Shown piece by piece: positions 1 to 11,698 of a stretch of 11,698 bases of DNA; the stretch's first letter is position 1; every line of letters starts with the position of its first letter. The position numbers and the translations under genes are program-made. The notes beneath the pieces are model-generated. The model saw nothing but the letters and a program-made list of their open reading frames with translations, was not told the DNA's origin and did not search any database. The DNA lies in assembly GCA_030636965.1 (NCBI GenBank), contig DAOVVW010000007.1, positions 1 through 11,698 of the forward strand. Reading direction: 5' to 3'. Origin of the DNA: Pseudomonadota bacterium. Its GTDB lineage: Bacteria > BMS3Abin14.

Positions 1-401
1 TTGCCCGTGGTGGGCAGCTTCCCGGGCCTGAATACCCGAAGAAAGGAGGCCACGACGTCAGCGGTGGTCAAATTATCGCCGTTGTGGAATTTGACTCCCT
101 TCCTCAGGGTAAACAGGTACTCCCTGCCATCCCTGCTGACTTTCCAGCTTTTCGCAAGACCGGGAACGACCCGTAGATTTTTGTCGTAGGCTACCAGTCC
201 GTCTCCAACCTGCTGCACTATATATGCTACAGAGTTCGATGTGTCCAGAGCCGGGTCAAAGGAATCAGGAGACCAGAATAAGGGGAAACGGAATATCCCG
301 GACGAATATGCAGTTGGAGCAGTAACAGCAAGAAAGATGATTATGAAAAATAAAAGTGAAGCCCCTTTGGAGTTGTTTCGTTTTTGTAATCTAAGAGACA
401 T
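1..401 (-). CDS. ABC transporter solute-binding protein, family 5 (peptide/nickel type), N-terminal part
   Basis: This is the N-terminal 133 codons of a periplasmic substrate-binding protein of the SBP_bac_5 (DppA/OppA/NikA) family; the rest lies beyond the left edge. The ATG at 401 is followed by a basic start and a hydrophobic stretch (about residues 14-28, LLFFIIIFLAVTA), a Sec signal peptide with likely cleavage after about residue 33. The mature start has the family hallmarks: SPDSFDPALDTSNS, then GDGLVAYDKNLRVVPGLAKSW, then a LRKGVKFHNGDNLTTADVV block. These proteins capture oligopeptides, dipeptides, nickel or other small ligands for an inner-membrane permease, and the fragment does not identify the ligand. 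Only a weak purine-rich stretch lies before the start. The gene has its own spacer, separated from the upstream tiny lipoprotein gene by a strong terminator. The family call is secure; the substrate is unknown. Confidence 0.88.
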   Translation of the reverse strand, partial: MSLRLQKRNNSKGASLLFFIIIFLAVTAPTAYSSGIFRFPLFWSPDSFDPALDTSNSVAYIVQQVGDGLVAYDKNLRVVPGLAKSWKVSRDGREYLFTLRKGVKFHNGDNLTTADVVASFLRVFRPGKLPTTG

Positions 402-476
402 AATAGAGGAAGGCCTCTCTGTGAGATTTCATGTATATGGAAACAAACCCCATGGAACCGGTAGACTATTGCCGCT

Positions 477-482
477 ATTATA
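477..482 (-). promoter_or_regulatory. possible -10 box for the solute-binding protein gene
   Basis: A perfect TATAAT reads on the minus strand about 75 bases before the ATG of the solute-binding protein gene and just downstream of the terminator of the preceding gene. No good -35 hexamer sits 16-18 bases upstream, and the surroundings are AT-rich, so the match could be chance. It is listed because this gene must start its own transcript after the terminator. Confidence 0.35.
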
Positions 483-536
483 TAGCTTAAAATACAATTC
501 ATTTCCAGTATATTAAGAAAATAAACAAAAAAACAG

Positions 537-565
537 AAAAAGGGGAGCTTCACGCTCCCCTTTTT
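537..565 (-). terminator. Rho-independent terminator after the tiny lipoprotein gene
   Basis: A perfect 12-bp stem (AAAAAGGGGAGC at 537-548 pairing with GCTCCCCTTTTT at 554-565) closes a 5-base loop. Read on the minus strand, the right side of the stem ends in a T run, followed by a second T-rich run at about 526-534. It begins 25 bases after the stop codon of the 31-codon gene. Because the stem is flanked by A and T runs it could work in both directions, but no plus-strand gene points into it. Confidence 0.92.
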
Positions 566-590
566 CAGAACAGTAACTTGTCAGTTTTCC

Positions 591-686
591 CTAGGGACCG
601 CCACCTCCACCACAGGCCAGGACTACTGTCGCCCAGCTCAGAACGGTTAATGCCGTCAGGGTCAGCGTAACGACTAGCTTCTTCAT
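591..686 (-). CDS. 31-residue minimal lipoprotein / exported peptide under sigma-54 control
   Basis: A 31-codon gene with ATG at 686 and TAG at 591-593. A consensus AGGAGGC at 692-698 lies 5 bases before the ATG. The product starts MKKLVV, has an uninterrupted hydrophobic core rich in Thr, Leu and Val (residues 4-23), then VLA-C at residues 22-25, which fits a lipobox with Cys25 as the modified residue. Only GGGGGP follows. If signal peptidase II processes it, the mature product would be a seven-residue lipopeptide of Cys, five Gly and Pro, and the released signal peptide would be 24 residues. Evidence that it is a real gene: the strong ribosome site, a sigma-54 promoter with the expected spacing, two upstream palindromes, and a terminator just after the stop. 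Its function is unknown. It could be a membrane-anchored tag, a signalling peptide or a small envelope stress product. I recognise no family. Confidence 0.82.
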   Translation of the reverse strand: MKKLVVTLTLTALTVLSWATVVLACGGGGGP

Positions 687-734
687 TTTCTGCCTCCTTA
701 TTCAACAGGGGTTTAAGGAACTTGTCCCTGCTAG

Positions 735-752
735 AAGCAATACCCTTGCCAA
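735..752 (-). promoter_or_regulatory. sigma-54 (RpoN) -24/-12 promoter of the tiny lipoprotein gene
   Basis: The minus strand reads TTGGCAAGGGTATTGCTT. The invariant GG (750-749) and GC (738-737) are separated by exactly 10 bases, and the flanks match the YTGGCACG-N4-TTGCW consensus at all but one position (A for C after TGGCA). Predicted transcription start is near 725, giving a leader of about 39 bases that contains the AGGAGGC ribosome site. A sigma-54 promoter requires an AAA+ activator, and such an activator is encoded by the adjacent gene. Confidence 0.88.
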
Positions 753-825
753 AAGTGTCGTCACGCCTAACATGTTGTTTTTAAAGTATTATTTAGTGCA
801 CCTCCAACTAATGAACGAACTTACA

Positions 826-843
826 TGCACACGTACGTGTGCA
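826..843. promoter_or_regulatory. 18-bp perfect palindrome, proximal upstream activator site
   Basis: TGCACACGTACGTGTGCA is a perfect dyad centred about 110 bp upstream of the predicted sigma-54 start. It shares the core GCACACG-N2-CGTGTGC with a second dyad 82 bp further upstream. The outer GCAC...GTGC halves resemble the general form of NtrC-type enhancer sites. The likely ligand is the Fis-type helix-turn-helix of the regulator encoded next door; this is inferred from position and symmetry. Confidence 0.75.
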
Positions 844-852
844 ACCAAAATG

Positions 853-873
853 CTGGCAGCAGTTCCATGCCAG
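853..873. repeat. short inverted repeat between the two palindromes
   Basis: CTGGCA at 853-858 and TGCCAG at 868-873 form a 6-bp inverted repeat with a 9-base gap, midway between the two activator-like palindromes. It has no T run and is not a terminator. It may be incidental or another protein-binding site. Confidence 0.3.
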
Positions 874-908
874 TAATGTTGTCTTAATTTCAATGGGATA
901 CAGTCGGT

Positions 909-924
909 GCACACGATCGTGTGC
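909..924. promoter_or_regulatory. 16-bp perfect palindrome, distal upstream activator site
   Basis: GCACACGATCGTGTGC is a perfect dyad centred about 192 bp upstream of the predicted sigma-54 start and 30 bp beyond the regulator's stop codon. Compared with the proximal dyad, only the central two bases differ (AT for TA). Paired enhancer sites at about -110 and -190 are typical for a hexamer-forming sigma-54 activator. Confidence 0.75.
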
Positions 925-953
925 GAGTGTTGACAAATATGTGCGTACTAATC

Positions 954-2348
954 TTACGGAAGTGCGATCCCCAAGGCCATCATTTTCTTGTACAGGGTAT
1001 TGCGGTGTACTTTCAGCAGCCTTGCCGCTTCAGACTGATTCCAGTCGGTCTTCCTCAGGGCAGAGAGGATGTACATCCTCTCGAATCTGTCTCGAGCCGA
1101 AATAAGTCCATCCGACACCGACCCTGAGGAAGCCTCCGGATCCCCCCTGGCAACGGTTATCTCCATGGGAAGGTCCTGCACGTCAATTTCGGACCCTTTC
1201 GGAGACAGAACTACGATCCTTTCCAACAGGTTCTCCAGTTCCCTGACGTTTCCCGGCCACTGACAGGATTTCAGTACCTTCATGGCCTCCCGGGAAACTT
1301 TTGGCACTGTCTTGTTCAGGCGCTCGCAGAGCCTTCCGAGAATATGTTTTACCAGCAGGGGTATGTCCTTTCTGCGGTCACGCAGTGGGGGTATGTTTAT
1401 GGGAATAACATTCAGGCGATAGAAAAGATCCTCCCTGAACTTTCCGTCAGCTACCATCTCCCCCAGGTCCTGGTTTGAAGCGGCTATGATCTGAACATCC
1501 GATCTGACAGACTGGGTGCCGCCCACCCTCACAAATTCCCTGTCCTGCAGGACCCTGAGGAGCTTTGCCTGAAGTTCCTGCTGAAGGGTCGATATCTCAT
1601 CAAGGAAGAGTATTCCCCCGTTCGCAAGTTCGAATTTCCCTATCTTCCGGGCATGCGCCCCCGTGAAGGCGCCCTTTTCATGACCGAAGAATTCACTCTC
1701 TAAAAGTTCACGTGGAATGGCGGCGCAGTTTACGGGGACAAAGGGGCCTTTTTTCCTCTCTCCCCTGGAGTGTATCGCCCGGGCCACCAACTCCTTCCCG
1801 GTTCCGCTCTCGCCCGAAATGAGAACGCTTGTATCTGTCTGCGCTACCTTTTCCACGATCATGAATAGCTCCAGCATCATGGGGGGTCTGCCCACCATGT
1901 CACCGAACCCACCGAGCTTTTCAACCTCCGCCCTCAGGAAGCTTACTGCCCGTTCAAGGCTTCTTCTTTGAAGCGCTCTTTTTATAACCTCCTTGAGTTC
2001 CTCTTTATCGAAAGGTTTTGCCAGATAATCGTAGGCCCCTTCCTTGACGGCCTGTATCCCCAACCTGGCACTGTCTGTAGCAGACAGCATGACAACCTCC
2101 GGTGGAGCCGGAAGCTTCATTATGCGGCTCAGGGTTTCCATTCCGTCTATCCCGGGCATGGTTACATCAAGAATTACGAGGTCCACACCAAGGTCCTCGA
2201 TCCTGTCAAGAGCCTCCTTGCCGTCGGCAGCCTTGTACATCCTGTAGCTCTCCTCAAGGAGAAGCTCGAGAGAGTCCCTTACGCTTTCCTCATCGTCCAC
2301 GATAAGGAGTTTGAACAGGTTTTCTCCTGTGGGTATTGAGCTCGTCAT
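954..2348 (-). CDS. NtrC-family sigma-54-dependent response regulator (REC / AAA+ / Fis HTH)
   Basis: A 464-residue transcription activator. Residues 12-125 are a receiver domain with acidic pocket DDE (18-20), phospho-acceptor Asp61 in VILDVTMP, Ser89 and Lys111. The AAA+ domain (about 150-385) has Walker A GESGTGKE (179-186), the sigma-54 contact loop GAFTGA (226-231), Walker B ILFLDE (246-251) and the FREDLFYRLNV segment. The C-terminal 45 residues hold a Fis-type helix-turn-helix (SEAARLLKVHRNTLYKKM). All elements needed to open a sigma-54 promoter are intact. It is the last gene of the five-gene operon. Its ATG overlaps the AMMECR1 stop as ATGA, so translation is probably coupled. No histidine kinase is adjacent, so its sensor is unknown. 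The best target in the window is the sigma-54 promoter 202-219 bp after its stop codon. Confidence 0.95.
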   Translation of the reverse strand: MTSSIPTGENLFKLLIVDDEESVRDSLELLLEESYRMYKAADGKEALDRIEDLGVDLVILDVTMPGIDGMETLSRIMKLPAPPEVVMLSATDSARLGIQAVKEGAYDYLAKPFDKEELKEVIKRALQRRSLERAVSFLRAEVEKLGGFGDMVGRPPMMLELFMIVEKVAQTDTSVLISGESGTGKELVARAIHSRGERKKGPFVPVNCAAIPRELLESEFFGHEKGAFTGAHARKIGKFELANGGILFLDEISTLQQELQAKLLRVLQDREFVRVGGTQSVRSDVQIIAASNQDLGEMVADGKFREDLFYRLNVIPINIPPLRDRRKDIPLLVKHILGRLCERLNKTVPKVSREAMKVLKSCQWPGNVRELENLLERIVVLSPKGSEIDVQDLPMEITVARGDPEASSGSVSDGLISARDRFERMYILSALRKTDWNQSEAARLLKVHRNTLYKKMMALGIALP

Positions 2349-2857
2349 CTGTATCGTTTCACCTCGAAGCGGTAAATCTCAAAGCTCTCATCATGACCGA
2401 TACCGGCCTTTTTCCTTGCAATTTCAAGCTGCCGGGAGACACTGTCCACTCCGGAAAGGTCAGGAAGCAGAACGCCTCTTTTGCCGCCACTCTTGACAAT
2501 GATCCCATACCTCTTTTCATCCAGCAAGGATGCATCCTGAACCGGCTCCGGCTCGGTGAGAACATCTACCGTTATTTCCAGGTCATCCAACTCCTCGTCC
2601 GAAACCGGTGAGAACCGGGAATCCCGCACTGCCGCACTGATTGCATTTTCGATGATCTCCTGACCGAGGTTTTCCGTGGCAGGCGTAATGGTACCTATAC
2701 ACCCCCGAAGCTTTTCGGACTTTTTCAAACTGACGAAGACGCCGGAAGGCGGATCATTCATGTAATCTTCCGGAGCTTGTAGTTTTCTGGCCGATTTGAC
2801 AAACTCCTCGATTGCTCTTTGAGCAAGTTCTGCCAATGGATGCCTGGGTGTAGTCAT
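2345..2857 (-). CDS. AMMECR1-domain protein
   Basis: A 170-residue stand-alone AMMECR1 domain (COG2078/TIGR00296 type). Family marks are FVSLKKSEKLRGCIGTI (with the conserved LRGCIG at 50-55), the helix with AVRDSRFSPV (RDSRF at 78-82), then LEITVDVLTEPEPV and a YGIIVKSGGKRGVLLPDL segment. The biochemical role of the domain is not established. In many bacteria it sits with MEMO and radical-SAM partners, neither of which is seen here. I chose the ATG at 2857 because an AGGA lies 6 bases upstream; an in-frame TTG at 2863 would add two residues. The gene starts 8 bases after the stop codon of the prenyl synthase and ends in a 4-base overlap with the regulator, so it is inside the operon. Confidence 0.9.
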   Translation of the reverse strand: MTTPRHPLAELAQRAIEEFVKSARKLQAPEDYMNDPPSGVFVSLKKSEKLRGCIGTITPATENLGQEIIENAISAAVRDSRFSPVSDEELDDLEITVDVLTEPEPVQDASLLDEKRYGIIVKSGGKRGVLLPDLSGVDSVSRQLEIARKKAGIGHDESFEIYRFEVKRYR

Positions 2858-2865
2858 CAACAATC

Positions 2866-3867
2866 CTAGGCCTTTCTGTAAACCACATATTTCACCATAG
2901 CCTCGAGGCTTGTCCTGGAGTCAGACTTGGGGAAGACTGCAAGTTCAGCACTCGCCTTATCGGAGTACTGCCTGGCGATTTCCCTGGTTCTTTCGAAGAC
3001 TCCCTCTTGATTCATCATTTCACGCACTTTTTCGAAATCGTCAGGATCAGGAGCTTCTTTAAGGAAGATATCTGCCACCTCACGCCTGCTGCCACTGCCA
3101 AGAACTTCCTGGAGGATGATCACCGGAAGTGTCACCTTGCCCTCAAGGAAATCCTTTCCTGTGGTTTTGCCGAAAACACCCTTTTGGGCAGTGTAATCCA
3201 GGATATCATCAACGATCTGGAACGATAATCCCAGATTCAGCCCGTACTGTTCCAGTGCCTTGAGAACAATATCGTCGAAATTCGCAAGATAGCCGGCAGC
3301 CCGGCATGAACCCGAGATCAGGCTAGCCGTTTTGCCTGTAATTACCTCGATATACTCTTCTATAGTAGTAGCCACGCTGTAGGAGCGGAGAAGCTGGAGG
3401 ACCTCTCCCCTGGCCATGGATGTTGTGGCAGTGGACATAGACTGGAGTATGCCCAGGTGTCCTATCTCTACGAGTATGGAAAAGGCCCTTGAATAAAGGT
3501 AATCGCCGGCCAGAACACTAGGTTCGGCGCCCCAGATATGGTGAGCGACCCTGTTGCCCCTGCGCACATCTGACTGGTCCACAACATCATCATGAAGCAA
3601 CGTTGCTGTATGTATGAACTCAACAGCCACCGCGAGCCGGTTTATGTCTTCAGGCGGGATGCTGTTGTTGCAGGAGGCAACAAGGAGAACCAGAAGGGGG
3701 CGGAATCTCTTTCCTCCCCCATCCAGAAGGTGCTGAAAGATACTGTCAATAACCGGAACGTCAGTTCTCAGATAATCTTTGAAGTGACTCTCGAGCGCAT
3801 CGAGCTCGATCCTTACAGGTTCGCTTATTTCTTTTAGGGTAGCGTTTGGCTGCCCTTCATCCCCCAT
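2866..3867 (-). CDS. ispB: long-chain trans-polyprenyl diphosphate synthase
   Basis: A 333-residue all-alpha prenyltransferase that condenses isopentenyl diphosphate onto an allylic primer; the product supplies quinone side chains. GGGKRFRP is at 50-57, the first aspartate-rich motif HDDVVDQSD with DDVVD at 93-97, and the second FQIVDDILDY with DDILD at 220-224. GKT (178-180) and KDFLEGKVTLPVI (238 onward) are also typical. Length and the DDxxD form of the first motif fit the octaprenyl/heptaprenyl class rather than FPP or GGPP synthases, but chain length cannot be read from sequence alone, so ispB is by family resemblance. The ATG overlaps the nfnB stop by one base (TAATG). The pairing with nfnAB suggests coupling of quinone supply to redox metabolism, an inference from position only. 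Confidence 0.93.
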   Translation of the reverse strand: MGDEGQPNATLKEISEPVRIELDALESHFKDYLRTDVPVIDSIFQHLLDGGGKRFRPLLVLLVASCNNSIPPEDINRLAVAVEFIHTATLLHDDVVDQSDVRRGNRVAHHIWGAEPSVLAGDYLYSRAFSILVEIGHLGILQSMSTATTSMARGEVLQLLRSYSVATTIEEYIEVITGKTASLISGSCRAAGYLANFDDIVLKALEQYGLNLGLSFQIVDDILDYTAQKGVFGKTTGKDFLEGKVTLPVIILQEVLGSGSRREVADIFLKEAPDPDDFEKVREMMNQEGVFERTREIARQYSDKASAELAVFPKSDSRTSLEAMVKYVVYRKA

Positions 3868-5324
3868 TACTCTTCCCCGTTTTCTTCTTCCTCGAATACG
3901 AGTTCCTCACCCATCATATGTGCATGCATAGCTCTTGAGGCGACTCTGCCGTCTCCCATTGCAAGAATGACAGTTGCGGCACCACGCACGATATCGCCGC
4001 CGGCATACACGCCCGGGAGACTGGTTTCTCCCGTCTTTTCATTGATCTCCACATAATCCCACTTGTTCAGGCCAAGACCAGGTGTAGATTTGGTCATGAG
4101 TGGATTTGCGCCGGTTCCAACTGAAACGATCACTGTCTCGACATCAACGATGAATTCGGAACCCTTGATTGGAACGGGCCTTCGGCGGCCTGAATCATCA
4201 GGTTCACCAAGTTCCATCCTGATACACTCCATGCCGGTAACCCAGCCATCATCGTTACCTATTATTCTTGCCGGATTCACAAGCAACTCGAAGATTATGC
4301 CCTCCTCCTCCGCGTGGTGAATCTCCTCTATTCTTGCCGGCATCTCTTTTCTCGAACGCCTGTAGACAACGGTAACTTCCTTCGCACCCATCCTGAGGGC
4401 AGTTCTGGCTGCGTCCATTGCCACATTGCCGCCCCCGATAACAGCCACCTTCTTGCCCGTGACAAGGGGCGTGTCGTACTTTGGAAAGAGATAGGCTTTC
4501 ATCAGGTTTGCCCTTGTCAGGTACTCGTTGGCTGAATAGACACCGTTGAGGTTCTCGCCGGGGATATCCATGAACCACGGAAGTCCCGCGCCTACTCCAA
4601 GGAAAACAGAATCATAGCCTTCATCTTCCATGAGATCCATCACGGTCAGTGTTTTCCCGATCACCATATTGTAGATGATCTTAACCCCCATCTTTTCCAG
4701 GTTCTCGATCTCGTAGTAGACGATCTCTTTGGGGAGCCTGAACTCCGGTATACCATATACAAGAACACCGCCAGGTTTGTGGAGCGCTTCGTATATTGTC
4801 ACCTCATGCCCCTTCACGATGAGATCTCCAGCCACAGTCAAGCCCGCCGGACCTGCTCCAACTATAGCTACTTTTTTCCCGGTAGGCTCGGCTGATTCGG
4901 GCAATTCCGTTTCAGGTTGGGCCATTTCCCAGTCAGCTGCAAACCTCTCCAGTCTGCCAACGGCCACCGGTTCTTCCTTGACACCTATAATGCACAGGAT
5001 CTCACACTGGTCCTCCTGGGGACATACCCTTCCACAGATAGCGGGCAGGGCATTGCTCTCCTTCAGTATCCTTATAGACCGGGCAAAATCGCCCTCTTCT
5101 ATAGCCAGTATGAAGCCCGGGATATCTATTCCCACCGGACATCCCGCAACGCAGCGCGGGTCTTTGCACTGGATGCACCGTGTTGCTTCAAGCATTGCCG
5201 TCTCAGGAGGATACCCCAACGGGACTTCCTCAAAGTTTCCGGCTCTTTCAACCGGCTCCTGCGCGGGCATCGCCTGACGTGGGACTTTTTCTTTCTTCTT
5301 TTTTGGTTCCTTTTTCTCTGTCAT
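3867..5324 (-). CDS. nfnB: NfnB: NADPH-binding large subunit of NADH-dependent ferredoxin:NADP+ oxidoreductase
   Basis: A 485-residue flavoprotein of the glutamate-synthase small-subunit type. After a Lys-rich head (residues 3-13), two 4Fe-4S cluster motifs occupy the N-terminal ferredoxin-like domain (Cys50, 53, 58, 62 and Cys97, 101, 107, 111). A FAD fold follows with GAGPAGL from 156, an NADP fold with VIGGGNVAMDAA around 296-306 and VYRRSRKEMPAR for the 2'-phosphate, and a C-terminal AGGDIVRGAATVILAMGDG flavin motif. Immediate pairing with nfnA separates it from GltD and from lone homologues. Nfn complexes bifurcate electrons between NADPH, NAD+ and ferredoxin in the cytoplasm. Start choice: ATG at 5324, with GAGG about 11 bases upstream and 13 bases after the nfnA stop; an in-frame TTG at 5348 would add eight residues and overlap nfnA. 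An older name for related pairs is sulfide dehydrogenase SudA. Confidence 0.92.
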   Translation of the reverse strand: MTEKKEPKKKKEKVPRQAMPAQEPVERAGNFEEVPLGYPPETAMLEATRCIQCKDPRCVAGCPVGIDIPGFILAIEEGDFARSIRILKESNALPAICGRVCPQEDQCEILCIIGVKEEPVAVGRLERFAADWEMAQPETELPESAEPTGKKVAIVGAGPAGLTVAGDLIVKGHEVTIYEALHKPGGVLVYGIPEFRLPKEIVYYEIENLEKMGVKIIYNMVIGKTLTVMDLMEDEGYDSVFLGVGAGLPWFMDIPGENLNGVYSANEYLTRANLMKAYLFPKYDTPLVTGKKVAVIGGGNVAMDAARTALRMGAKEVTVVYRRSRKEMPARIEEIHHAEEEGIIFELLVNPARIIGNDDGWVTGMECIRMELGEPDDSGRRRPVPIKGSEFIVDVETVIVSVGTGANPLMTKSTPGLGLNKWDYVEINEKTGETSLPGVYAGGDIVRGAATVILAMGDGRVASRAMHAHMMGEELVFEEEENGEE

Positions 5325-5337
5325 CGGTGCGCTTTCC

Positions 5338-6168
5338 TCACTCTCCAATGTATGTTAAAGACTCAATCGCTTCCCTTTCTTCTTTCAGATACATCCTCTG
5401 TCTTAATCTCAGTTCGGCAAAATCCACCTGATGGCCGTCGAAGTCCGGCCCCTCAACACAAACGAACTTTGTCTTGCCAGCTACAGTTACCCTGCAGGCA
5501 CCACACATTCCTGTACCGTCAACCATAATGGGGTTAAGGCTGACCATGGTTTTTATCTCAAAGGGTTTGGTGAGCTTGCACACTGCCTCCATCATGGGCA
5601 CGGGGCCTATCGCTACGACCAGGTCTATGGGAGAACCATTATTGATGAGATCTTCCAGAAGGTTTGTCACAAATCCCTTCTGTCCGTAGCTTCCATCATC
5701 GGTGCATATCATAATTTCCGTGCTGGCCTTTACCATCTCCTTTTCCATTATCAGTAGATCCCTGGATCTTGCTCCCAGGATCGAGATCACCTTGCTCCCG
5801 GCATTCTTGAAACCTCTGGCAACAGGATGCACAGGGGCAATTCCTATGCCGCCCCCGATACATACCACAAGGCCCAGCTTCTCAAGATGACTCGGGATCC
5901 CCAGAGGGCCAACTACATCTTCCAGGAAGTCACCCTTGGAAAGTCCGCCGAGCTGCATGGTGCTCTTGCCTACCTCCTGGAAGATCAGAGTGACCGTTCC
6001 CCTTTTCGGGTGGCTGTCAGCTATTGTGAGAGGTATTCTCTCCCCCTCCTCGTTGATCTTTATGATCACAAATTGTCCGGGAAGGGTTTTTGAAGCAATG
6101 TAGGATGCTTCTACCTCAATGGAGTGAACGTCATGAGCCAGAGTTGTTTTTTTCTTGATCTCAAACAC
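5338..6168 (-). CDS. nfnA: NfnA: FAD/NAD(H)-binding, 2Fe-2S small subunit of NADH-dependent ferredoxin:NADP+ oxidoreductase
   Basis: A 276-residue protein of the ferredoxin-NADP reductase / PyrK family. The N-terminal barrel carries the flavin motif ERIPLTIAD (43-51), the Rossmann part has CIGGGIGIAPV (103-113), and the C-terminal cluster motif is VDGTGMCGACRV with Cys222, Cys225 and Cys237 (KFVCVEG). Nfn enzymes ligate this 2Fe-2S cluster with three Cys and one Asp, and Asp217 lies in that loop. In the complex this subunit bears the NAD(H) site and the bifurcating flavin is in NfnB. The start is GTG at 6168, preceded by GGAGGGAGGAAGGA with good spacing. It is the first gene of the operon. 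A 5-bp hairpin (6189-6206) lies just before the ribosome site. Adjacent nfnB makes the assignment firm. Confidence 0.93.
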   Translation of the reverse strand: MFEIKKKTTLAHDVHSIEVEASYIASKTLPGQFVIIKINEEGERIPLTIADSHPKRGTVTLIFQEVGKSTMQLGGLSKGDFLEDVVGPLGIPSHLEKLGLVVCIGGGIGIAPVHPVARGFKNAGSKVISILGARSRDLLIMEKEMVKASTEIMICTDDGSYGQKGFVTNLLEDLINNGSPIDLVVAIGPVPMMEAVCKLTKPFEIKTMVSLNPIMVDGTGMCGACRVTVAGKTKFVCVEGPDFDGHQVDFAELRLRQRMYLKEEREAIESLTYIGE

Positions 6169-6360
6169 TGTTTTTCCTTCCTCCCTCCGCTGGTTTCTGA
6201 TCCAGCCTTAATAAAGCAGGTCACCATGCCTGTCCCGGCACTTGTGCCTAGACAACCGCAATCATCACGCCGAGCAGCCACTAATTGTTCATGGTACGCG
6301 GGAAGTTATTTTGGAAAACGAAGGGTTAAAGTATCATGAATTTAGTTCACTTGCGACCCT

Positions 6361-6382
6361 CAATGTGGATATTTTTCACAAA
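6361..6382 (-). promoter_or_regulatory. imperfect Rex-like dyad upstream of nfnA
   Basis: The minus strand reads TTGTGAAAAATATCCACATTG. This resembles the redox-sensor Rex operator TTGTGAA-N4-TTCACAA, but with one extra spacer base and two mismatches in the right half. It lies about 200 bp upstream of nfnA. Nfn uses NAD(H), so Rex control would make sense, but a match this poor may be chance. Confidence 0.2.
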
Positions 6383-6437
6383 CTGATTTTTTGTATATTT
6401 GGGAGTGTATCCATGCAAGTTTTTGGTTGTTAGTTGG

Positions 6438-6518
6438 TAGTTGTTGGTTGACTCGAAAAACGAAATTGGAAATTGGAGCATTGGAAATTAGATTAACTCA
6501 GTTGATAGTTGTTGGTTG
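6438..6518. repeat. direct repeats TAGTTGTTGGTTG and ATTGGAAATT words
   Basis: TAGTTGTTGGTTG occurs at 6438-6450 and again at 6506-6518. Between them lie repeated TTGGAAATT words (6466-6489), of which GAGCATTGGAAATT at 6476-6489 has an exact inverted copy at 9990-10003. No coding or transposon signature is associated. Confidence 0.7.
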
Positions 6519-6553
6519 TTAGTTGTTAAATGGGTAGCAACCTTATGGTTGCA

Positions 6554-6581
6554 GTTCCAGGTTCCAAGTTCCAGGTTTCAA
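6554..6581. repeat. four copies of a 7-bp tandem word (GTTCCAG type)
   Basis: GTTCCAG, GTTCCAA, GTTCCAG and GTTTCAA follow each other without gaps. A different word with the same 7-bp period occurs at 9864-9891. Confidence 0.75.
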
Positions 6582-6809
6582 GGAGATTGACACAGCGCCA
6601 AATACAGATAAAGCGACGCCCATGAAAGGCTCCTCACAGTGCGTTAGATTCAAGGCCAGAGTTCTGAGGAGACCGGAGATGTATATGGCACATACATCGA
6701 GGATCTTCGAAGGACGATAACGCAAAAGATGACGTGCTATGAGAGCCGCATAACTAACCCCAAATCAATCATGTTGACTCAGAAAAACGCAAATGCTAAT
6801 TCTCACCCT

Positions 6810-7394
6810 ATGAAGATCAAATCCGCAGACTTGTATGACCAAGCCTTCACTCCCCGGCAGATCCCCCACACTCAACATCCTCAGGTGGCGGTGGTAGGGC
6901 GGTCCAATGTTGGAAAGTCATCTCTCCTTGCTAAGATGATGAGGAGAAAAAAACTGGTCAAAACAAGCTCCACACCGGGAAAGACAAGAGCCCTCTTTTA
7001 CTATCTTGTCAATGAATCCATCCTGCTTGTGGACCTGCCCGGATACGGCTTTTCCCGGGCGCCAAAGCAGGTCTCCTCCCGCTGGAGAGCGTTGGTGGAA
7101 GCATATCTTGACGGGGATTCCGGACCAGATCTTGTTCTGCAGCTTATCGATATACGCCACCCTCCAACCGGCGACGACATAGCCGTTAACCGCCTTCTGT
7201 CCGACAGAAGCATTCAGACCCTGATCGTTGCAACCAAGGCAGACAAGATATCCCGCTCTGCAAGAAGCAGGTCCCTCGACGTTATAGCCAGGGAACTTGC
7301 GACCTCTCCCTCAGCTATTGTCCCCTTTTCGGCCAAAGATTCATCCTTTGACCCCAAAGAGCTCTGGGATAACATCATTTCCATCCTCACCTAG
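6810..7394 (+). CDS. engB: EngB/YsxC ribosome-biogenesis GTPase
   Basis: A 194-residue single-domain TRAFAC GTPase needed for large-subunit assembly in the cytoplasm. All nucleotide motifs are present: G1 GRSNVGKS (30-37), G2 TPGKT (55-59) within the family-typical KTSSTPGKTR, G3 DLPGYGFSRAP (75 onward), G4 TKAD (142-145) and G5 SAK (174-176). The start is uncertain. MKIKSADLYDQAF at 6810 matches the usual family N-terminus and length, but has no Shine-Dalgarno sequence. Upstream in-frame ATGs at 6771 and 6729 would add 13 or 27 residues unlike the family, and they also lack a well-placed ribosome site. It stands alone, divergent from nfnA and convergent with the cytochrome gene. Confidence 0.95.
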   Translation: MKIKSADLYDQAFTPRQIPHTQHPQVAVVGRSNVGKSSLLAKMMRRKKLVKTSSTPGKTRALFYYLVNESILLVDLPGYGFSRAPKQVSSRWRALVEAYLDGDSGPDLVLQLIDIRHPPTGDDIAVNRLLSDRSIQTLIVATKADKISRSARSRSLDVIARELATSPSAIVPFSAKDSSFDPKELWDNIISILT

Positions 7395-7451
7395 GGTGGG
7401 CTGGGCCCCTTCGTAGCTGATCTGACGCTCCTGGATACTACGGACTGCTGG

Positions 7452-7482
7452 ATGCTGCTGGCTAAACCTGCCAATGCAGCAT
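7452..7482. terminator. possible terminator hairpin between engB and the cytochrome gene
   Basis: ATGCTGCTGGC at 7452-7462 pairs with GCCA (7470-7473) and GCAGCAT (7476-7482), leaving a 7-base loop and a 2-base bulge. It lies in the 100-bp convergent gap. Neither strand has a clear T run after the stem, so it is at best a weak or Rho-assisted end. Confidence 0.3.
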
Positions 7483-7494
7483 TACGACGATCTT

Positions 7495-8496
7495 TCAGCC
7501 TCCCTGCCTGGGATCAGGGGCAGTTCTATTGTAGTCCTGAGGCTTGTGGCATCCAACTGTACAGTTGCCGCCATCCTCTGAGGGGGTGTAGGTCATTGTG
7601 AGAAAAATGATCCCCTTGTGTACATATTTACTTATCAGACTGAAGGGCTGGGTGGTTCCATGAGGACTGTGGCATATGGAACAGGATCTTGCCTTGCCTC
7701 TCTTTGCAATCCCGTATCTGTTGGGCTTTAAAGCGCCCATTACATGAACGTTATGCAGATTCTTCGAACCGTTACTGAAATTGGTATCCTCCGGGCCACC
7801 GGTGACAAGTGATGATTCATGGCACTGAAAACAGAGCGGGTACATCTCCTCGCTGAACCCACCAGGGAATCGGGTGGTTTCGTACTTGTCAATCAGAAGC
7901 TTTGAAAATTCAGTGGAGTGTGGATCGTGACAGTCCGTACATTCTCCGTCGGAAAGAGCTGTGTGGGTCAGGCTGTTCATTTCATCAGGAATATCATGGC
8001 ACTGACTGCACAGGTCTGGTATTCCTTCTGTCAGGAGAGCACCCTGGTCGGATGAATGCGGATTGTGACAGTCTGTGCAACTGCCGTCCGAGACTGCTTC
8101 GTGGACCACCTTGCCTTCAGTTGGATCGTCGTGACACTGAAGACACAGTTCTGGCACAGCATCTACAAGGAGCGATGCCTTATCAGATGAATGCGGGTCG
8201 TGACAGTCGATACAGTCCCCGTCCGTTACCGCTTCATGGACCACCTTGCCTTCAGCTGGATCATCGTGGCACTGAAGGCACAGGGCGCTACCCTCCTCCA
8301 CCAGCACCAGCCTCTCGTCATCGCCGTGAGACTCATGGCAATCCTCGCAGGCATCATCCTCAATTGCAGAGTGAATCACTTTTTTAGCCCGAATCTCCCC
8401 GATCCGCTCCTCGTGGCATTCGGCGCACTGATCTCCGGCGAGGGCAGGACTTACCAAGGCAAGGAGAATGGTCACGGTGAATAAAATTTTATTCAT
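7495..8496 (-). CDS. periplasmic 11-heme doubled-CXXCH cytochrome c (paralog A)
   Basis: A 333-residue exported multiheme cytochrome. Residues 1-20 form a signal peptide (MNKIL, hydrophobic core, PALA cleavage). Ten CXXCH sites have first Cys at 24, 50, 73, 95, 118, 140, 163, 186, 222 and 272, and an eleventh site is CTVGCH (Cys312, His317), a CX3CH form. The C-x-D-C-H-[DN]-P-H-S plus L-C-x-Q-C-H pairs are the doubled-CXXCH pattern (PF09699/TIGR01905 type) seen in electron-transfer cytochromes of deltaproteobacteria. Residues 73-162 are two near-identical 45-residue units. Extra His residues in the CH-x-P-H and HNVH segments could be distal ligands. The ATG at 8496 has only a weak AAAGG about 15 bases upstream. 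A second paralog lies upstream in the same direction. The redox partner is unknown. Confidence 0.92.
   Translation of the reverse strand: MNKILFTVTILLALVSPALAGDQCAECHEERIGEIRAKKVIHSAIEDDACEDCHESHGDDERLVLVEEGSALCLQCHDDPAEGKVVHEAVTDGDCIDCHDPHSSDKASLLVDAVPELCLQCHDDPTEGKVVHEAVSDGSCTDCHNPHSSDQGALLTEGIPDLCSQCHDIPDEMNSLTHTALSDGECTDCHDPHSTEFSKLLIDKYETTRFPGGFSEEMYPLCFQCHESSLVTGGPEDTNFSNGSKNLHNVHVMGALKPNRYGIAKRGKARSCSICHSPHGTTQPFSLISKYVHKGIIFLTMTYTPSEDGGNCTVGCHKPQDYNRTAPDPRQGG
8011..8280 (-). repeat. 135-bp tandem duplication inside cytochrome paralog A
   Basis: Two adjacent 45-codon units (residues 73-117 and 118-162), each holding two heme motifs, are very similar at the DNA level. For example, ccaccttgccttcag is shared, and differences are mostly single bases. 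A third, more diverged unit follows. This points to recent unequal duplication of a two-heme module. Confidence 0.8.
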
Positions 8497-8794
8497 TGCT
8501 GTGTAAAGAGCCTTTCGAGGAAAGCTTAATCCCCCAATGTCAGTGGAGGTACTCCCCGGGAAATAACCAGTATTTAGATTGTTAGTGACAAGTGGGAGTT
8601 TGCTACCAGAAGGACAGATTTATGTCAAGCTGAAATTTTCCCTTGTGACAACTATAATTGCCAATTATTACAAGAAGTTACCGTATCTACCATCCTGCCC
8701 GGCATCAGATTCATCAACAACTGAAAATTCTATCGGTTCCGGGTCTGTATATCAGGATAACCAACCAGGGAATTGGCCTTTTTACAGCATCGTT
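8497..8794. other. 298-bp spacer between the two cytochrome genes
   Basis: AT-rich with no ribosome-bound open frame. It probably contains the promoter of cytochrome paralog A and the 3' end of paralog B. No good terminator is visible after paralog B. Confidence 0.6.
8600..8628 (-). promoter_or_regulatory. candidate sigma-70 promoter for cytochrome paralog A
   Basis: On the minus strand a perfect TTGACA (8628-8623) is followed after 17 bases by TAGCAA (8605-8600), a 3-of-6 match to TATAAT. The leader to the ATG would be about 100 bases. Spacing is ideal but the -10 box is weak. Confidence 0.35.
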
Positions 8795-9793
8795 TTACTG
8801 TCTGGCATAGGAAGCCCGTCCATGGCACGCAGTCAGACATCTGCCACCATCCGGTTCAGGAAAAAATGTGATCATCCTGCACATTATTTCGGTGCATTCG
8901 AAATACCGCCTCAGACTGAAAGACTGAACTGAACCATGTGGGTCGTGGCAGTTTGCACAGGACCGGGATTTGCCCTTGACGGTGAGGCCTTCTCCTGTAA
9001 AACGCACTTTTCCAAGAACATGAACCGTGTGCAGATTGACAGATCCATCCCTGAAGCCAGTGTCACTCGGGTCTTTGCCGACAACAAGGAAGCTGTCGTG
9101 ACAAGAAAAGCAAAGGCTGTATTTCTCCTTTTCATAGGATCCCGGGAAAAAGTCGCTTCTATATTCCTGCTTGAGTAACCTGTACAGAGTGGAAGAATGG
9201 GGATCATGGCATGAAACGCACCCTCTTTTATGAAGGGCAGAGTGGGGCCGTTCCTCCTCGGACAAAACACTGTGGCATCCGGAGCATAATTGATCTGATT
9301 TCGCCTTTAACATCTTTCCCGTGTCGGAGATGTGAGGTGTATGGCATTCCCGGCAGCCTTTGTAAGTTATTGCCTGATGGACATATGACGCTTTAACAAT
9401 GTTTCCGTGGCATAGCATACAAAGCTCATCGAAGGACTTGACCGTCAGGTTCTTCTTGTCTGAGCTGTGAGGATCATGACATGGCAGGCAGGCATTTTCT
9501 CCGGGCAGGTGCGTTCTTAACTCTCTGCCAGGGCTGTCGTGGCATTTCAGGCACAGGGTTGTTCCCTCCAGGACAAGAGTTAACTCGTTGGACTCCCCAT
9601 GATCCAGGTGGCAATCCAAACACTCCCCGGAAATAAAGGGAGTGTGAAGTATTCTATCACTGGACATCTTGTCGATCCAGGCCCCATGGCACTGCCTGCA
9701 TTCAACCGCACCAAATACGGGAAGGATCATAACAACCATAATGAACAGAGAGCCGATGATTATTTGTATGCATTGTATGTATTTTTTTGTCAC
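8795..9793 (-). CDS. periplasmic 11-heme doubled-CXXCH cytochrome c (paralog B)
   Basis: A 332-residue paralog of the neighbouring cytochrome with the same heme order. CXXCH first Cys are at 32, 58, 81, 102, 125, 147, 170, 192, 228 and 279, and the final site is CLTACH (Cys319, His324), again CX3CH. The N-terminus has a long hydrophobic segment (9-29) ending in VFGA, which may be a signal peptide or an uncleaved anchor. Overall identity to paralog A is modest, but landmarks such as FFPGSYEKEKYSLCF, NLHTVHVLG and KSRSCANCHDPHG align. Residues 300 and 305 are extra Cys (CTEIMC) without a His, absent from paralog A. The start is GTG at 9793, since no ATG is placed to keep the full signal sequence; an AGGA lies about 14 bases upstream, far for a ribosome site. 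The tandem pair suggests a shared electron-transfer job, partner unknown. Confidence 0.9.
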   Translation of the reverse strand: MTKKYIQCIQIIIGSLFIMVVMILPVFGAVECRQCHGAWIDKMSSDRILHTPFISGECLDCHLDHGESNELTLVLEGTTLCLKCHDSPGRELRTHLPGENACLPCHDPHSSDKKNLTVKSFDELCMLCHGNIVKASYVHQAITYKGCRECHTPHISDTGKMLKAKSDQLCSGCHSVLSEEERPHSALHKRGCVSCHDPHSSTLYRLLKQEYRSDFFPGSYEKEKYSLCFSCHDSFLVVGKDPSDTGFRDGSVNLHTVHVLGKVRFTGEGLTVKGKSRSCANCHDPHGSVQSFSLRRYFECTEIMCRMITFFPEPDGGRCLTACHGRASYARQ

Positions 9794-9863
9794 TGTCAGC
9801 TAATTATCCTGTGTTGCTTCGTTAAGGTTGATAGTTATAACCAACAACTTGCAACATTGTAAT

Positions 9864-9891
9864 GGGCGTTGGGCCTTGGGCTTTGGGCAGT
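9864..9891. repeat. four copies of a 7-bp GGGCNTT-type tandem word
   Basis: GGGCGTT, GGGCCTT, GGGCTTT and GGGCAGT run without gaps. A partly complementary run, AGCCCATGGCCCACAGC, lies at 9944-9960, so the segment could fold back imperfectly. Confidence 0.7.
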
Positions 9892-9902
9892 GAGCTATGA
9901 AC

Positions 9903-9932
9903 TTCATAAATACATAATTCTTCATTTATGAA
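9903..9932. repeat. 9-bp inverted repeat TTCATAAAT / ATTTATGAA
   Basis: TTCATAAAT (9903-9911) and ATTTATGAA (9924-9932) are perfect inverted copies separated by 12 bases. There is no flanking T run, so a terminator is unlikely. It may be an operator or part of the repeat mosaic. Confidence 0.5.
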
Positions 9933-9974
9933 ATGATTCTTGAAGCCCATGGCCCACAGCACACTGCACAATAT

Positions 9975-10003
9975 CAATTTCCAATGTCCAATTTCCAATG
10001 CTC
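9975..10003. repeat. CAATTTCCAATG direct repeat, including the inverted copy of the 6476-6489 word
   Basis: CAATTTCCAATG occurs at 9975-9986 and 9989-10000. AATTTCCAATGCTC at 9990-10003 is the exact reverse complement of GAGCATTGGAAATT at 6476-6489, on the other side of engB and the two cytochromes. Confidence 0.75.
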
Positions 10004-10040
10004 TAATGATCTAATGTTCTTCAACCGCTTTTAGTGATGC

Positions 10041-10069
10041 TTGACAGAACCACAATAACCCGAAAAGAT
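10041..10069 (+). promoter_or_regulatory. candidate promoter for the REC-PilZ / hflX unit
   Basis: A perfect TTGACA at 10041-10046 is followed after 17 bases by AAAGAT (10064-10069), a weak -10 box. It lies about 95 bases before the start of the REC-PilZ gene, just after the repeat mosaic ends. Confidence 0.35.
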
Positions 10070-10164
10070 GGATTACCGTTCGCGAAATATCATGAGATTA
10101 AATAGTAGCTCAATCGGAGTCTGTGGGAAAGACTCAACATGGGAAACGGATCCTGAGGGTTTGA

Positions 10165-10875
10165 ATGGATGAGCTGAAATTGCTTCTGGTAGACGATGTG
10201 GAGCTTTTCCTGGATCTCGAAAAGAGTTTCCTGAACAGAGAATCGTTCACCATTTTTACTGCAAAATCAGGCAAGGAAGCCCTGGAGGCAGTCAGCAGAA
10301 TAAAACCGGACCTTGTTCTGGTTGATCTTTTCATGCCGGATCTCAATGGTGATGAAGTCTGCCGCGAACTCAAGAGTAATGCCGAGACCAGAAATATCCC
10401 CGTGATCATAACGAGTTCCGACACCCTGGAGGGAGTTCGTGAGAGATGCTACTCTGCCGGTTGTGACGGCTTTATATCAAAGCCGATCCACCGTGAAACA
10501 CTGATATCAACCATTGAGGATAATCTCCAGATTGCAAAAAGGCGTTTCAAGCGGATACCCGCACATCTTCTGAGTTCTGTAAGAATTGATGACGCAGTAA
10601 TCGAGTGCGTTGTTACTACAATTGCCCAGATGGGGGCCTTTGTTGTGATATCTCCACCTCCTGAAGCAGGAAAATCCATTGAACTTGCCATAAAACTACC
10701 CGAGTCCAACAAACCGTTAACTGTCAGGGCAGTTGTAAGATGGACAACATTGGAAGCGGGTGATACTTCCGAAGGGGCAGGGGTAGAGTTTGTTGCGTTA
10801 AGCGAAGAGGATGAGGACAAGATAGAGGATTATGTAGCTTCAAGACTCAGCATTACGGGTTCCGCGAAGAGATAG
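10165..10875 (+). CDS. response regulator with C-terminal PilZ-like domain
   Basis: A 236-residue cytoplasmic signalling protein. Residues 4-120 are a receiver domain: DD at 10-11, phospho-acceptor Asp54 in LVLVDLFMP, Thr83/Ser84 in VIITSSD, and Lys106 in FISKPI. Residues 126-226 look like a PilZ domain of the kind common in myxobacteria and other deltaproteobacteria, with the RxxxR c-di-GMP motif as RRFKRI (126-131). The second motif (D/N-x-S-x-x-G) is degenerate, reading TIAQMG at 152-157, so ligand binding is doubtful. The later part (VRAVVRWTT... GAGVEFVALSEED) follows the usual PilZ barrel and end helix. ATG at 10165 has GAGGG 5 bases upstream. The stop at 10873 is followed within 5 bases by the hflX ribosome site, so the two are likely cotranscribed. 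Output is probably protein-protein contact. Confidence 0.88.
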   Translation: MDELKLLLVDDVELFLDLEKSFLNRESFTIFTAKSGKEALEAVSRIKPDLVLVDLFMPDLNGDEVCRELKSNAETRNIPVIITSSDTLEGVRERCYSAGCDGFISKPIHRETLISTIEDNLQIAKRRFKRIPAHLLSSVRIDDAVIECVVTTIAQMGAFVVISPPPEAGKSIELAIKLPESNKPLTVRAVVRWTTLEAGDTSEGAGVEFVALSEEDEDKIEDYVASRLSITGSAKR

Positions 10876-10880
10876 TCAAG

Positions 10881-10896
10881 AAGGAGAAACATAATC
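10881..10896 (+). promoter_or_regulatory. hflX ribosome site with ATA/ATC start codon
   Basis: AAGGAG at 10881-10886, then AAAC, then ATA and ATC. The spacing to ATA is 4 bases and to ATC is 7 bases. Both codons are rare starts that initiation factor IF3 discriminates against, as known for the AUU start of infC. There is no standard start codon nearby in this frame. Confidence 0.6.
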
Positions 10897-11698
10897 GCAA
10901 AAGTTGAGGGCAAAACTTCCGGACTGAAGACTGGTCAGATCCGCCGCCTACAGCGTCTTACCAGAGCAAAACCACGCCCTGAGGAAGTCATCCACACCGA
11001 AATTCTAAAAACACTCTCCACCCTTTCCAGGGAGACCGGACGGCAGCTGGGAGTTCTAATCAACAGAACCGGTGCGGTGGATATTATCCTGGTAGGTGAC
11101 AGACACAGCATCCTTATCCCCGACCTGTCCCGCTACCGGATAAGCCCGGGGCGCCTGAAGGGGCTCCGTTTCATCCACACACACCTGGATGATTCAGGGC
11201 TCTCCATGGAAGATTTGACAGACCTCCTTCTTCTCCGGTTGGACATGATCATTAGTGTCTGTGTTTCCTCCGATGGTCAACCCGGGAAAACTCACCTTGG
11301 AACTCTGAACCCTCAATCGGTTACGAGGTGGGAGATCCAGACTTTTCCTGATCCTGGCGAGCTTCCTCACAGCCCGCTGACAATTATTCATGAAGTTGAA
11401 CAGGAAATGTCCCGTCACATCCGCGGCCTTGTTACAGAAGGGGTTGAGCGAGCGGTTCTCGTAGACCTGAAAACATCTTCGAAGTCCGACACAGAAGAAT
11501 CCATGAATGAACTGGCAGAGCTTGCAAGGACCGCCGGAATACAGGTTGCCGACACCGTGATCCAGCAGCGAGCAAAGCCTGATCCACGCTACCTGGTGGG
11601 CCTGGGCAAACTCCAGGAAATTGTGATCATGGCTCTGGACAATGGTGCAGAAATGCTGATTTTTAACCGCGAACTCTCAGCATCACAGCTGAGGGCAA
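10891..11698 (+). CDS. hflX: HflX ribosome-associated GTPase, N-terminal 269 residues, non-canonical start
   Basis: The N-terminal part of HflX, a GTPase that splits stalled or hibernating ribosomes; the GTP-binding domain lies beyond the right edge. Residues 185-269 match the classic HflX N-domain (VERAVLVDL, a LAELARTAGIQVADTVIQQR block, DPRYLVGLGKLQEI, AEMLIFNRELSASQLRA). Residues 1-184 are an added domain found in long HflX forms, starting KVEGKTSGLKTGQIRRLQRL. The frame opens right after the REC-PilZ stop, in the same frame. AAGGAG at 10881-10886 is an excellent ribosome site, but the codons after it are ATA (10891) and ATC (10894). The first GTG lies deep in the domain (codon 63) and no ATG or TTG comes earlier. 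I give ATA as the left limit; ATC has the better spacing (7 bases). A sequence error or a true ATA/ATC start are both possible. Confidence 0.88.
   Translation, partial: MIAKVEGKTSGLKTGQIRRLQRLTRAKPRPEEVIHTEILKTLSTLSRETGRQLGVLINRTGAVDIILVGDRHSILIPDLSRYRISPGRLKGLRFIHTHLDDSGLSMEDLTDLLLLRLDMIISVCVSSDGQPGKTHLGTLNPQSVTRWEIQTFPDPGELPHSPLTIIHEVEQEMSRHIRGLVTEGVERAVLVDLKTSSKSDTEESMNELAELARTAGIQVADTVIQQRAKPDPRYLVGLGKLQEIVIMALDNGAEMLIFNRELSASQLRA

Follow-up and report, generated by a model that had tools for sequence, protein, structure and literature searches.

A conserved glycine-tailed peptide gene as the candidate signal gene of a self-inducing, peptide-sensing two-component circuit

We analyzed an 11,698-nucleotide stretch of DNA from a Pseudomonadota bacterium (BMS3Abin14; GenBank assembly GCA_030636965.1, contig DAOVVW010000007.1, positions 1 to 11,698; hereafter the window), with a focus on a 31-codon gene (591..686, minus strand) that encodes the small precursor MKKLVVTLTLTALTVLSWATVVLACGGGGGP. 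This gene lies between the gene of an NtrC-type response regulator and the start of a gene encoding an SBP_bac_5 oligopeptide-binding protein, which in related loci is followed by a histidine kinase gene. The peptide module is real and conserved, and its gene content, co-occurrence, regulatory sites, selection and binding-protein fold class are observed features. We give somewhat better than even chances to the interpretation that this locus is the signal gene of a self-inducing, peptide-sensing two-component circuit, with the glycine-rich tail of the precursor favoured over the released leader as the active species. Genomes, contigs and loci are cited below by our own G, C and L numbers.

Organization of the peptide locus

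Re-reading of the window found every element listed in the initial annotation in its place on the minus strand. In the direction of transcription, the order is regulator, two palindromes, promoter, ribosome-binding site, peptide gene, terminator and binding-protein gene start. The regulator gene (954..2348) encodes receiver, sigma-54 activation AAA+ and Fis-type helix-turn-helix domains (Pfam Response_reg, Sigma54_activat, AAA_lid_14 and HTH_8), and its product is the probable activator of the peptide gene. It is followed by two putative palindromic activator sites, the distal TGCACACGATCGTGTGCG (908..925; one mismatch to TGCACA-N6-TGTGCA) and the proximal TGCACACGTACGTGTGCA (826..843; an exact match), a predicted sigma-54 -24/-12 promoter (736..751) and, by sequence inspection, the ribosome-binding site AAGGAGG (693..699). 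The peptide gene itself comprises a leader (codons 1-24, 615..686), with an MKK start, a hydrophobic core and a terminal V-L-Ala, and a predicted released tail (codons 25-31, 594..614), C-G-G-G-G-G-P. Downstream lies an intrinsic terminator with a T-run (536..566; -23.7 kcal/mol, z -6.7), whose stem has 13 pairs rather than the 12 originally counted. The binding-protein gene (3..401; Pfam SBP_bac_5, E 1e-18) is represented by its first 133 codons and is truncated by the contig end. The earlier description of the unit as self-contained is not supported, as the regulator gene and the binding-protein gene start are part of the peptide gene's unit, whose partners are a response regulator, an SBP_bac_5 protein and a histidine kinase.

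Conservation and co-occurrence of the peptide, regulator and binding protein

In the window's family, 8 of 12 genomes carry the peptide, and in each of them the order of regulator, paired palindromes, promoter, peptide and binding-protein start is the same. A regulator 60-65% identical to that of the window is present in eight of the 11 other family genomes (one as a fragment) and adjoins the peptide in seven. In G011, the regulator is found on one contig and the binding protein and kinase on another, both contigs ending where the peptide is expected. The family genome search found neither the peptide nor a regulator above 47% identity in G001, G002 and G008. In a broad set of 366 genomes searched at E 0.001, the only matches were the eight family members and G042, where peptide, binding protein and kinase are all present; outside the family and G042, 0 of 353 genomes matched.

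A scan with the binding protein led to two further loci, L071 and L111; in both, a peptide gene of this type precedes that of the binding protein. For the class to which L111's genome belongs (389 genomes), a profile built from 11 peptides gave matches in 34 at E <=0.01. Strong matches (E <=6.2e-6) were obtained in 28 of these, corresponding to 27 besides L111's own genome G065, which is in the profile. The six weak matches (E 8.6e-4 to 0.005) were set aside; among them, that of G379 is real by eye, and that of G309 has no binding protein at the locus. The binding protein adjoins the peptide gene in all 28 strong genomes (in G095, on contig C217). Searched from the other side, a binding protein at >=50% identity is present in 30 of the 389 class genomes, 29 of which carry a peptide gene of the same type. 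Twenty-seven of the 30 are among the 28 strong genomes, the 28th being G365, with a partial binding protein at 52%. The rest are G427, whose peptide gene is cut with its tail at a contig end, G379, whose peptide has a changed tail, and G412, where the binding-protein gene begins at a contig end, so that a neighbouring peptide is unobservable.

In the phylum that includes L071's genome (345 genomes), a 29-peptide profile yielded 11 matching genomes, nine of them new after exclusion of G061 (in the profile) and G820 (a 516-amino acid frame without binding protein). All nine new peptides lie between a regulator 54-63% identical to that of L111 and a binding protein 43-60% identical to that of L111 or L071. 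Binding proteins 57-78% identical to that of L111 are also recorded from Desulfobacula, Desulfotignum and other Desulfobacteraceae; that of Desulfobacula phenolica is at 72%.

Sequence features and selection of the peptide family

In total, we listed 55 peptide genes from 48 genomes, corresponding to 53 distinct sequences. These have the basic start, hydrophobic core and small -1 and -3 residues of a Sec signal peptide cut by signal peptidase I. Position 2 is Lys or Arg in 53/53 sequences, with the hydrophobic core next, and towards the predicted cleavage site the leader has Tyr or Trp at -7 (45/53), Pro at -4 (44/53), Val (45), Ala (4) or Leu (4) at -3, Leu (48) or Met (5) at -2 and Ala (52) or Ser (1) at -1; Leu at -3 is a poor fit for signal peptidase I. 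The residue at +1 varies (Cys 15, Ser 13, Gly 7, Glu 6, Val 4, Thr 3, Asp 2, and Gln, Tyr and Asn one each). The tails are 5-8 residues long and take 41 distinct forms among the 53 sequences, nearly all with Gly in the core and an end that varies; across the set, tail type is confounded with ancestry.

The initial annotation proposed a sigma-54-type unit with a single tiny, apparently exported product, to be judged by the conservation of its frame, promoter and palindromes and by Ka/Ks. This proposal stands, as the frame and promoter are conserved, the palindromes are conserved in the family, and the peptide is under purifying selection at a dN/dS of about 0.2. Pooled dN/dS was 0.21 for eight family members (28 pairs) and 0.17 for 29 class sequences (403 pairs), with about 0.1 for the tail alone, values that are only rough because synonymous sites are near saturation. 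A chance open reading frame is ruled out by purifying selection together with occurrence in 48 genomes. The window's peptide has no matching family in Pfam or NCBIfam, and a known RNA element was rejected, there being no Rfam match at gathering score.

Tandem peptide genes occur in G219 (three, L251, identical in protein), G1046 (three, L233) and G1027 (two, L232 and L242). Together with the many tail forms, they fit a signal under diversification. In G379 (L247, G379:C367:38000-50000), four tandem binding-protein genes adjoin the peptide with the changed tail, possibly a diversification event of receptor and signal.

Promoter and palindromic sites

The sequence TGGCAAGGGTATTGCT (751..736) is the sole perfect match to TGGCA-N6-TTGCW in the window. 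With one mismatch allowed, the pattern has two matches against 1.6 by chance, which alone is weak evidence; we accept the promoter because its position is conserved. In a scan of up to 420 nt upstream of 39 peptide genes (G313 and G379 left out), the best GG-N10-GC site lies 65-99 nt upstream of the start codon in 32. Seven genes deviate: that of G042, which lies at a contig start, two downstream tandem copies in G219, and those of G095, G163, G365 and G262, with the best site 209-274 nt upstream. A follow-up scan covered 11 peptide genes of the nine phylum genomes, which took no part in choosing the pattern, and three others; in 9/9 of these later genomes the site is 74-104 nt upstream of the first peptide gene. 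The promoter of the initial annotation is thus kept in position, and the locus also holds a sigma-54 activator gene. From the promoter sequence, transcription would be expected to start near 725. A GGAG-type ribosome site is found upstream of the peptide genes displayed in the 39-gene scan.

The two palindromes had been noted with the cores GCACACGTACGTGTGC (827-842) and GCACACGATCGTGTGC (909-924). These are the only two matches in the window at <=2 mismatches, a number never reached in 200 shuffles (mean 0.01), and the shared core proved wider than noted, TGCACA-N6-TGTGCA at 826-843 and 908-925. All eight peptide-carrying family genomes have two such sites (<=1 mismatch) between the regulator and the peptide, at a spacing of 80-82 bp. 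We also scanned eight chosen genomes (G118, G400, G405, G061, G1027, G1046, G188 and G359) for exact sites, and the reversed palindrome, used as a control, gave 0 sites in these genomes. Exact sites number two each in G118 and G400 and one each in G405, G061, G1027 and G1046, and in these six distant genomes every one is at the peptide promoter, 177-334 nt upstream of the peptide gene. For G118, this means 5.2 Mb, nearly all on one contig.

Binding protein and histidine kinase

The binding protein is assigned to SBP_bac_5 by both Pfam (PF00496) and fold. Its structural model (pLDDT 80, pTM 0.73) has peptide and signal binders as best or near-best fold matches, namely AapF, DppA, OppA with the PhrE pentapeptide (8are) and PrgZ. 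The modelled fold does not name the ligand, because binders of nickel, sialic acid and opines have scores close to theirs. In DppA, Asp408 anchors the peptide amine; the corresponding Asp is kept in the profile and at least 90% conserved over 34 rows.

The kinase is a membrane histidine kinase with single Cache, HAMP, PAS, HisKA and HATPase domains. Its gene comes after the binding-protein gene in 17 loci (L065, L066, L068, L111, L151, L218, L223, L245, L246, L247 and L250-L256). The exception is G009 (L064), which has a 100-N gap inside the binding-protein gene and an unrelated gene next. An ordinary peptide transporter is disfavoured because the kinase gene follows the binding-protein gene in the 17 loci read, with no search aimed at permease genes. 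Candidate signal, receptor and regulator are encoded together, as in peptide-autoinducer systems.

Judging from gene order in relatives, contig C78 of the same draft genome probably continues the window's binding-protein gene and carries its kinase. The start of this contig (L223) encodes the C-terminal part of an SBP protein (8-772) and a histidine kinase (787-2613), after which come a further palindrome pair (2619/2638), a further -24/-12 site (2719) and a single-domain response regulator (2842-3213).

Proposed circuit and alternative explanations

In the proposed circuit, the precursor would be exported by Sec and cut by signal peptidase I after the conserved Ala, freeing the glycine-rich tail in the periplasm, from which a peptide of 5-8 residues could pass porins. 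A dedicated oligopeptide-binding protein would capture the tail and act on the membrane kinase, not on a transporter, and the kinase would phosphorylate the NtrC-type regulator. The regulator would bind the paired palindromes and activate transcription of the peptide gene from its sigma-54 promoter, which would complete a positive loop; in the window's family, the regulator apparently drives small response-regulator genes too. The nearly side-chain-free core may allow a narrow pocket that excludes ordinary nutrient peptides, and the variable tail ends may provide species-specific forms. We infer release, phosphotransfer and density sensing as steps of this scheme.

Several points weigh against this interpretation. 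Cleavage, exit from the cell and binding to the binding protein are likewise steps that we infer; the closeness of other binders in the fold comparison and the roughness of the dN/dS values count here as well. Four class genomes have a distant binding protein (35-36%) and no strong peptide match. G095 holds two extra peptide genes ending GGGGPW (L249, G095:C171:7000-14000; 2242-2337 and 2452-2547), with no regulator, kinase or binding-protein match in the 7 kb read. Regarding the palindromes, G188 has five exact sites, two of them at the peptide; G359 has no exact site; L111's genome holds only degenerate copies near the peptide, with 1-2 mismatches; and five of the nine new phylum genomes have none within two mismatches. 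In genomes lacking good copies, the palindrome has either drifted along with the regulator or is unused. Loci L234, L235 and L237-L240, with tails EGGGY, EGGGW, TGGGW and similar, have the -24/-12 site; five of them have no palindrome within two mismatches and L234 has one with two, and their regulator may read another site.

Family genomes also carry palindromes elsewhere, which we traced over 16 stretches and which are a further point against the proposed circuit. In G003, G004, G006, G009 and G011, a further palindrome separates the regulator gene from a divergently oriented receiver-PilZ gene. A palindrome with a -24/-12 site precedes the single-domain response regulator gene after the kinase in the window's own genome, G003 and G011, and a receiver-PilZ gene elsewhere in G010 and G005; the encoded proteins were assigned by domain search, that of G010 by likeness. 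Among the regulator's targets, the peptide gene appears to be the most constant, and the window's family has added small signalling proteins. Exact palindromes also occur at L207 4002, L209 4198 and L212 730, near genes for similar AFASNTVTLPLFEPE-containing proteins (G006 and G004), near which no -24/-12 site was found with the pattern used. The window encodes a receiver-PilZ protein as well (10165-10875, plus strand), 8 kb off and with no such palindrome upstream within three mismatches, and two multihaem cytochromes with paired CXXCH repeats (7495-8496 and 8795-9793, minus strand).

The strong conservation of the leader is odd for a leader that is merely removed. Ordinary signal peptides drift in sequence. 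Over 22 class genomes with a pattern-found lipobox, mean identity is 69% for the leader, 25% for the signal peptide of the binding protein itself (compared ungapped, so this value may be somewhat low) and 62% for the mature binding protein, and the leader exceeds that signal peptide in 231/231 pairs. Such conservation, far above that of ordinary signal peptides, leaves two readings: something recognises the leader specifically, or the peptide works in the membrane without being cut. The latter is the main rival explanation, unlikely in our estimate and yet live: a one-helix small protein of the inner membrane, with a periplasmic glycine tail, would feed back on the kinase or binding protein, in the manner of MgrB and SafA, small membrane proteins that act on PhoQ. 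The prevalence of Pro at -4 and of Tyr or Trp at -7 speaks for it, as does the peptide of G379, whose tail is very different (SASGSSYP in place of the glycine run) and whose leader is kept. However, signal peptidase I prefers Ala at -1 and no Pro next, and the near-invariant Ala followed by a freely varying residue that is never Pro suits this enzyme. Moreover, an anchor alone explains neither the tail present in every sequence nor the Gly core at a dN/dS of about 0.1, and the peptide-binding protein would be left without a clear ligand.

We hold it improbable that foreign peptides or the state of the envelope are what the binding protein and kinase sense, the peptide being an output only, e.g., a reporter of Sec/signal-peptidase capacity. 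SBP_bac_5 proteins mostly bind nutrient peptides, the kinase owns a Cache domain and the family genomes have further regulator targets, all of which agree with such a role, but the exact sites lie solely at the peptide gene in the six distant genomes, and peptide and binding protein co-occur almost without exception, which a mere output need not do. Slightly less probable still is that the end of the leader (approximately Y-A-M-P-V-L-A) is released from the membrane, as are the sex pheromones of Enterococcus from lipoprotein signal peptides, and caught by the PrgZ-like protein; in a two-membrane cell, the freed leader would be in the inner membrane and the binding protein outside it, and the conserved Gly core and variable ends of the tail would have no reason. 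The initial annotation read the product as a lipoprotein, and the window's peptide does have Cys at +1, as do 14 further distinct sequences. This residue is nevertheless absent from 38 of the 53, and it is swapped for Ser between relatives with identical leaders (Cys in G009, Ser in G004). The lipobox usually has a small residue at -2, where the family has Leu or Met throughout. Because Cys is no family trait, lipidation is not the common mechanism, and an active mature lipopeptide, which we consider highly improbable, is already contradicted for the family. The self-inducing circuit with the tail as its signal is the interpretation that we compare with known systems below.

Comparison with known signalling systems

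In the Gram-positive Agr, ComX/ComP and Fsr systems, a gene-encoded peptide, a kinase and a response regulator share one locus and induce themselves; to our knowledge, these systems have no binding protein and no sigma-54. Their peptides also differ in being modified or cyclic. The peptide section of a 2026 review names only Gram-positive systems, despite its heading "and beyond" (PMC13220807, section 7). The pheromones of Enterococcus, with PrgZ/TraC, are similar in that a short peptide from a signal-peptide-bearing precursor is caught by a protein of SBP_bac_5 fold. There, however, the pheromone comes from the end of the leader, and after import through Opp its target is a cytoplasmic regulator (PMC7117660). 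The RRNPP/Phr systems share the capture of a short exported peptide signal by an OppA fold (8are). We know of no kinase partner for that OppA. According to the review's account of them, RRNPP/Phr peptides are imported and read inside the cell (PMC13220807).

LuxP/LuxQ and CBP/ChiS of Vibrio resemble the proposed circuit in that a periplasmic binding protein works with a membrane histidine kinase. The Vibrio AI-2 pathway, too, ends in a sigma-54 activator, LuxO, and in neither system is signal synthesis known to be driven by the same regulator. They differ in their ligands, AI-2 and chitobiose, neither of which is a peptide encoded beside the receptor genes (PMC13220807, PMC7564644). The circuit resembles LuxPQ on its receptor side and the Gram-positive peptide systems on its signal side, without belonging to either. 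No such system is described in the titles and abstracts of the open-licence literature matches listed, and the circuit appears to be a form of bacterial chemical signalling that has not been described before. Azoarcus is reportedly a producer of an unidentified cell-cell signal.

More broadly, we put at even the chance that these loci represent a widespread family of unmodified, gene-encoded, glycine-cored peptide autoinducers of two-membrane bacteria, sensed by a periplasmic binding protein and kinase, self-amplified through sigma-54 and occurring in dozens of tail forms specific to species. Peptide autoinducers have mostly been described from Gram-positives. If true, the circuit, found complete and repeatedly conserved in sulphate-reducer relatives and other lineages, would amount to a gene-encoded peptide language for bacteria with two membranes, and it would explain the kinase neighbours of some proteins filed as ABC transporter components. 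The signal would be simple enough for synthesis and direct testing. It would also mean that genes of 30 codons can form the core of a regulatory system.
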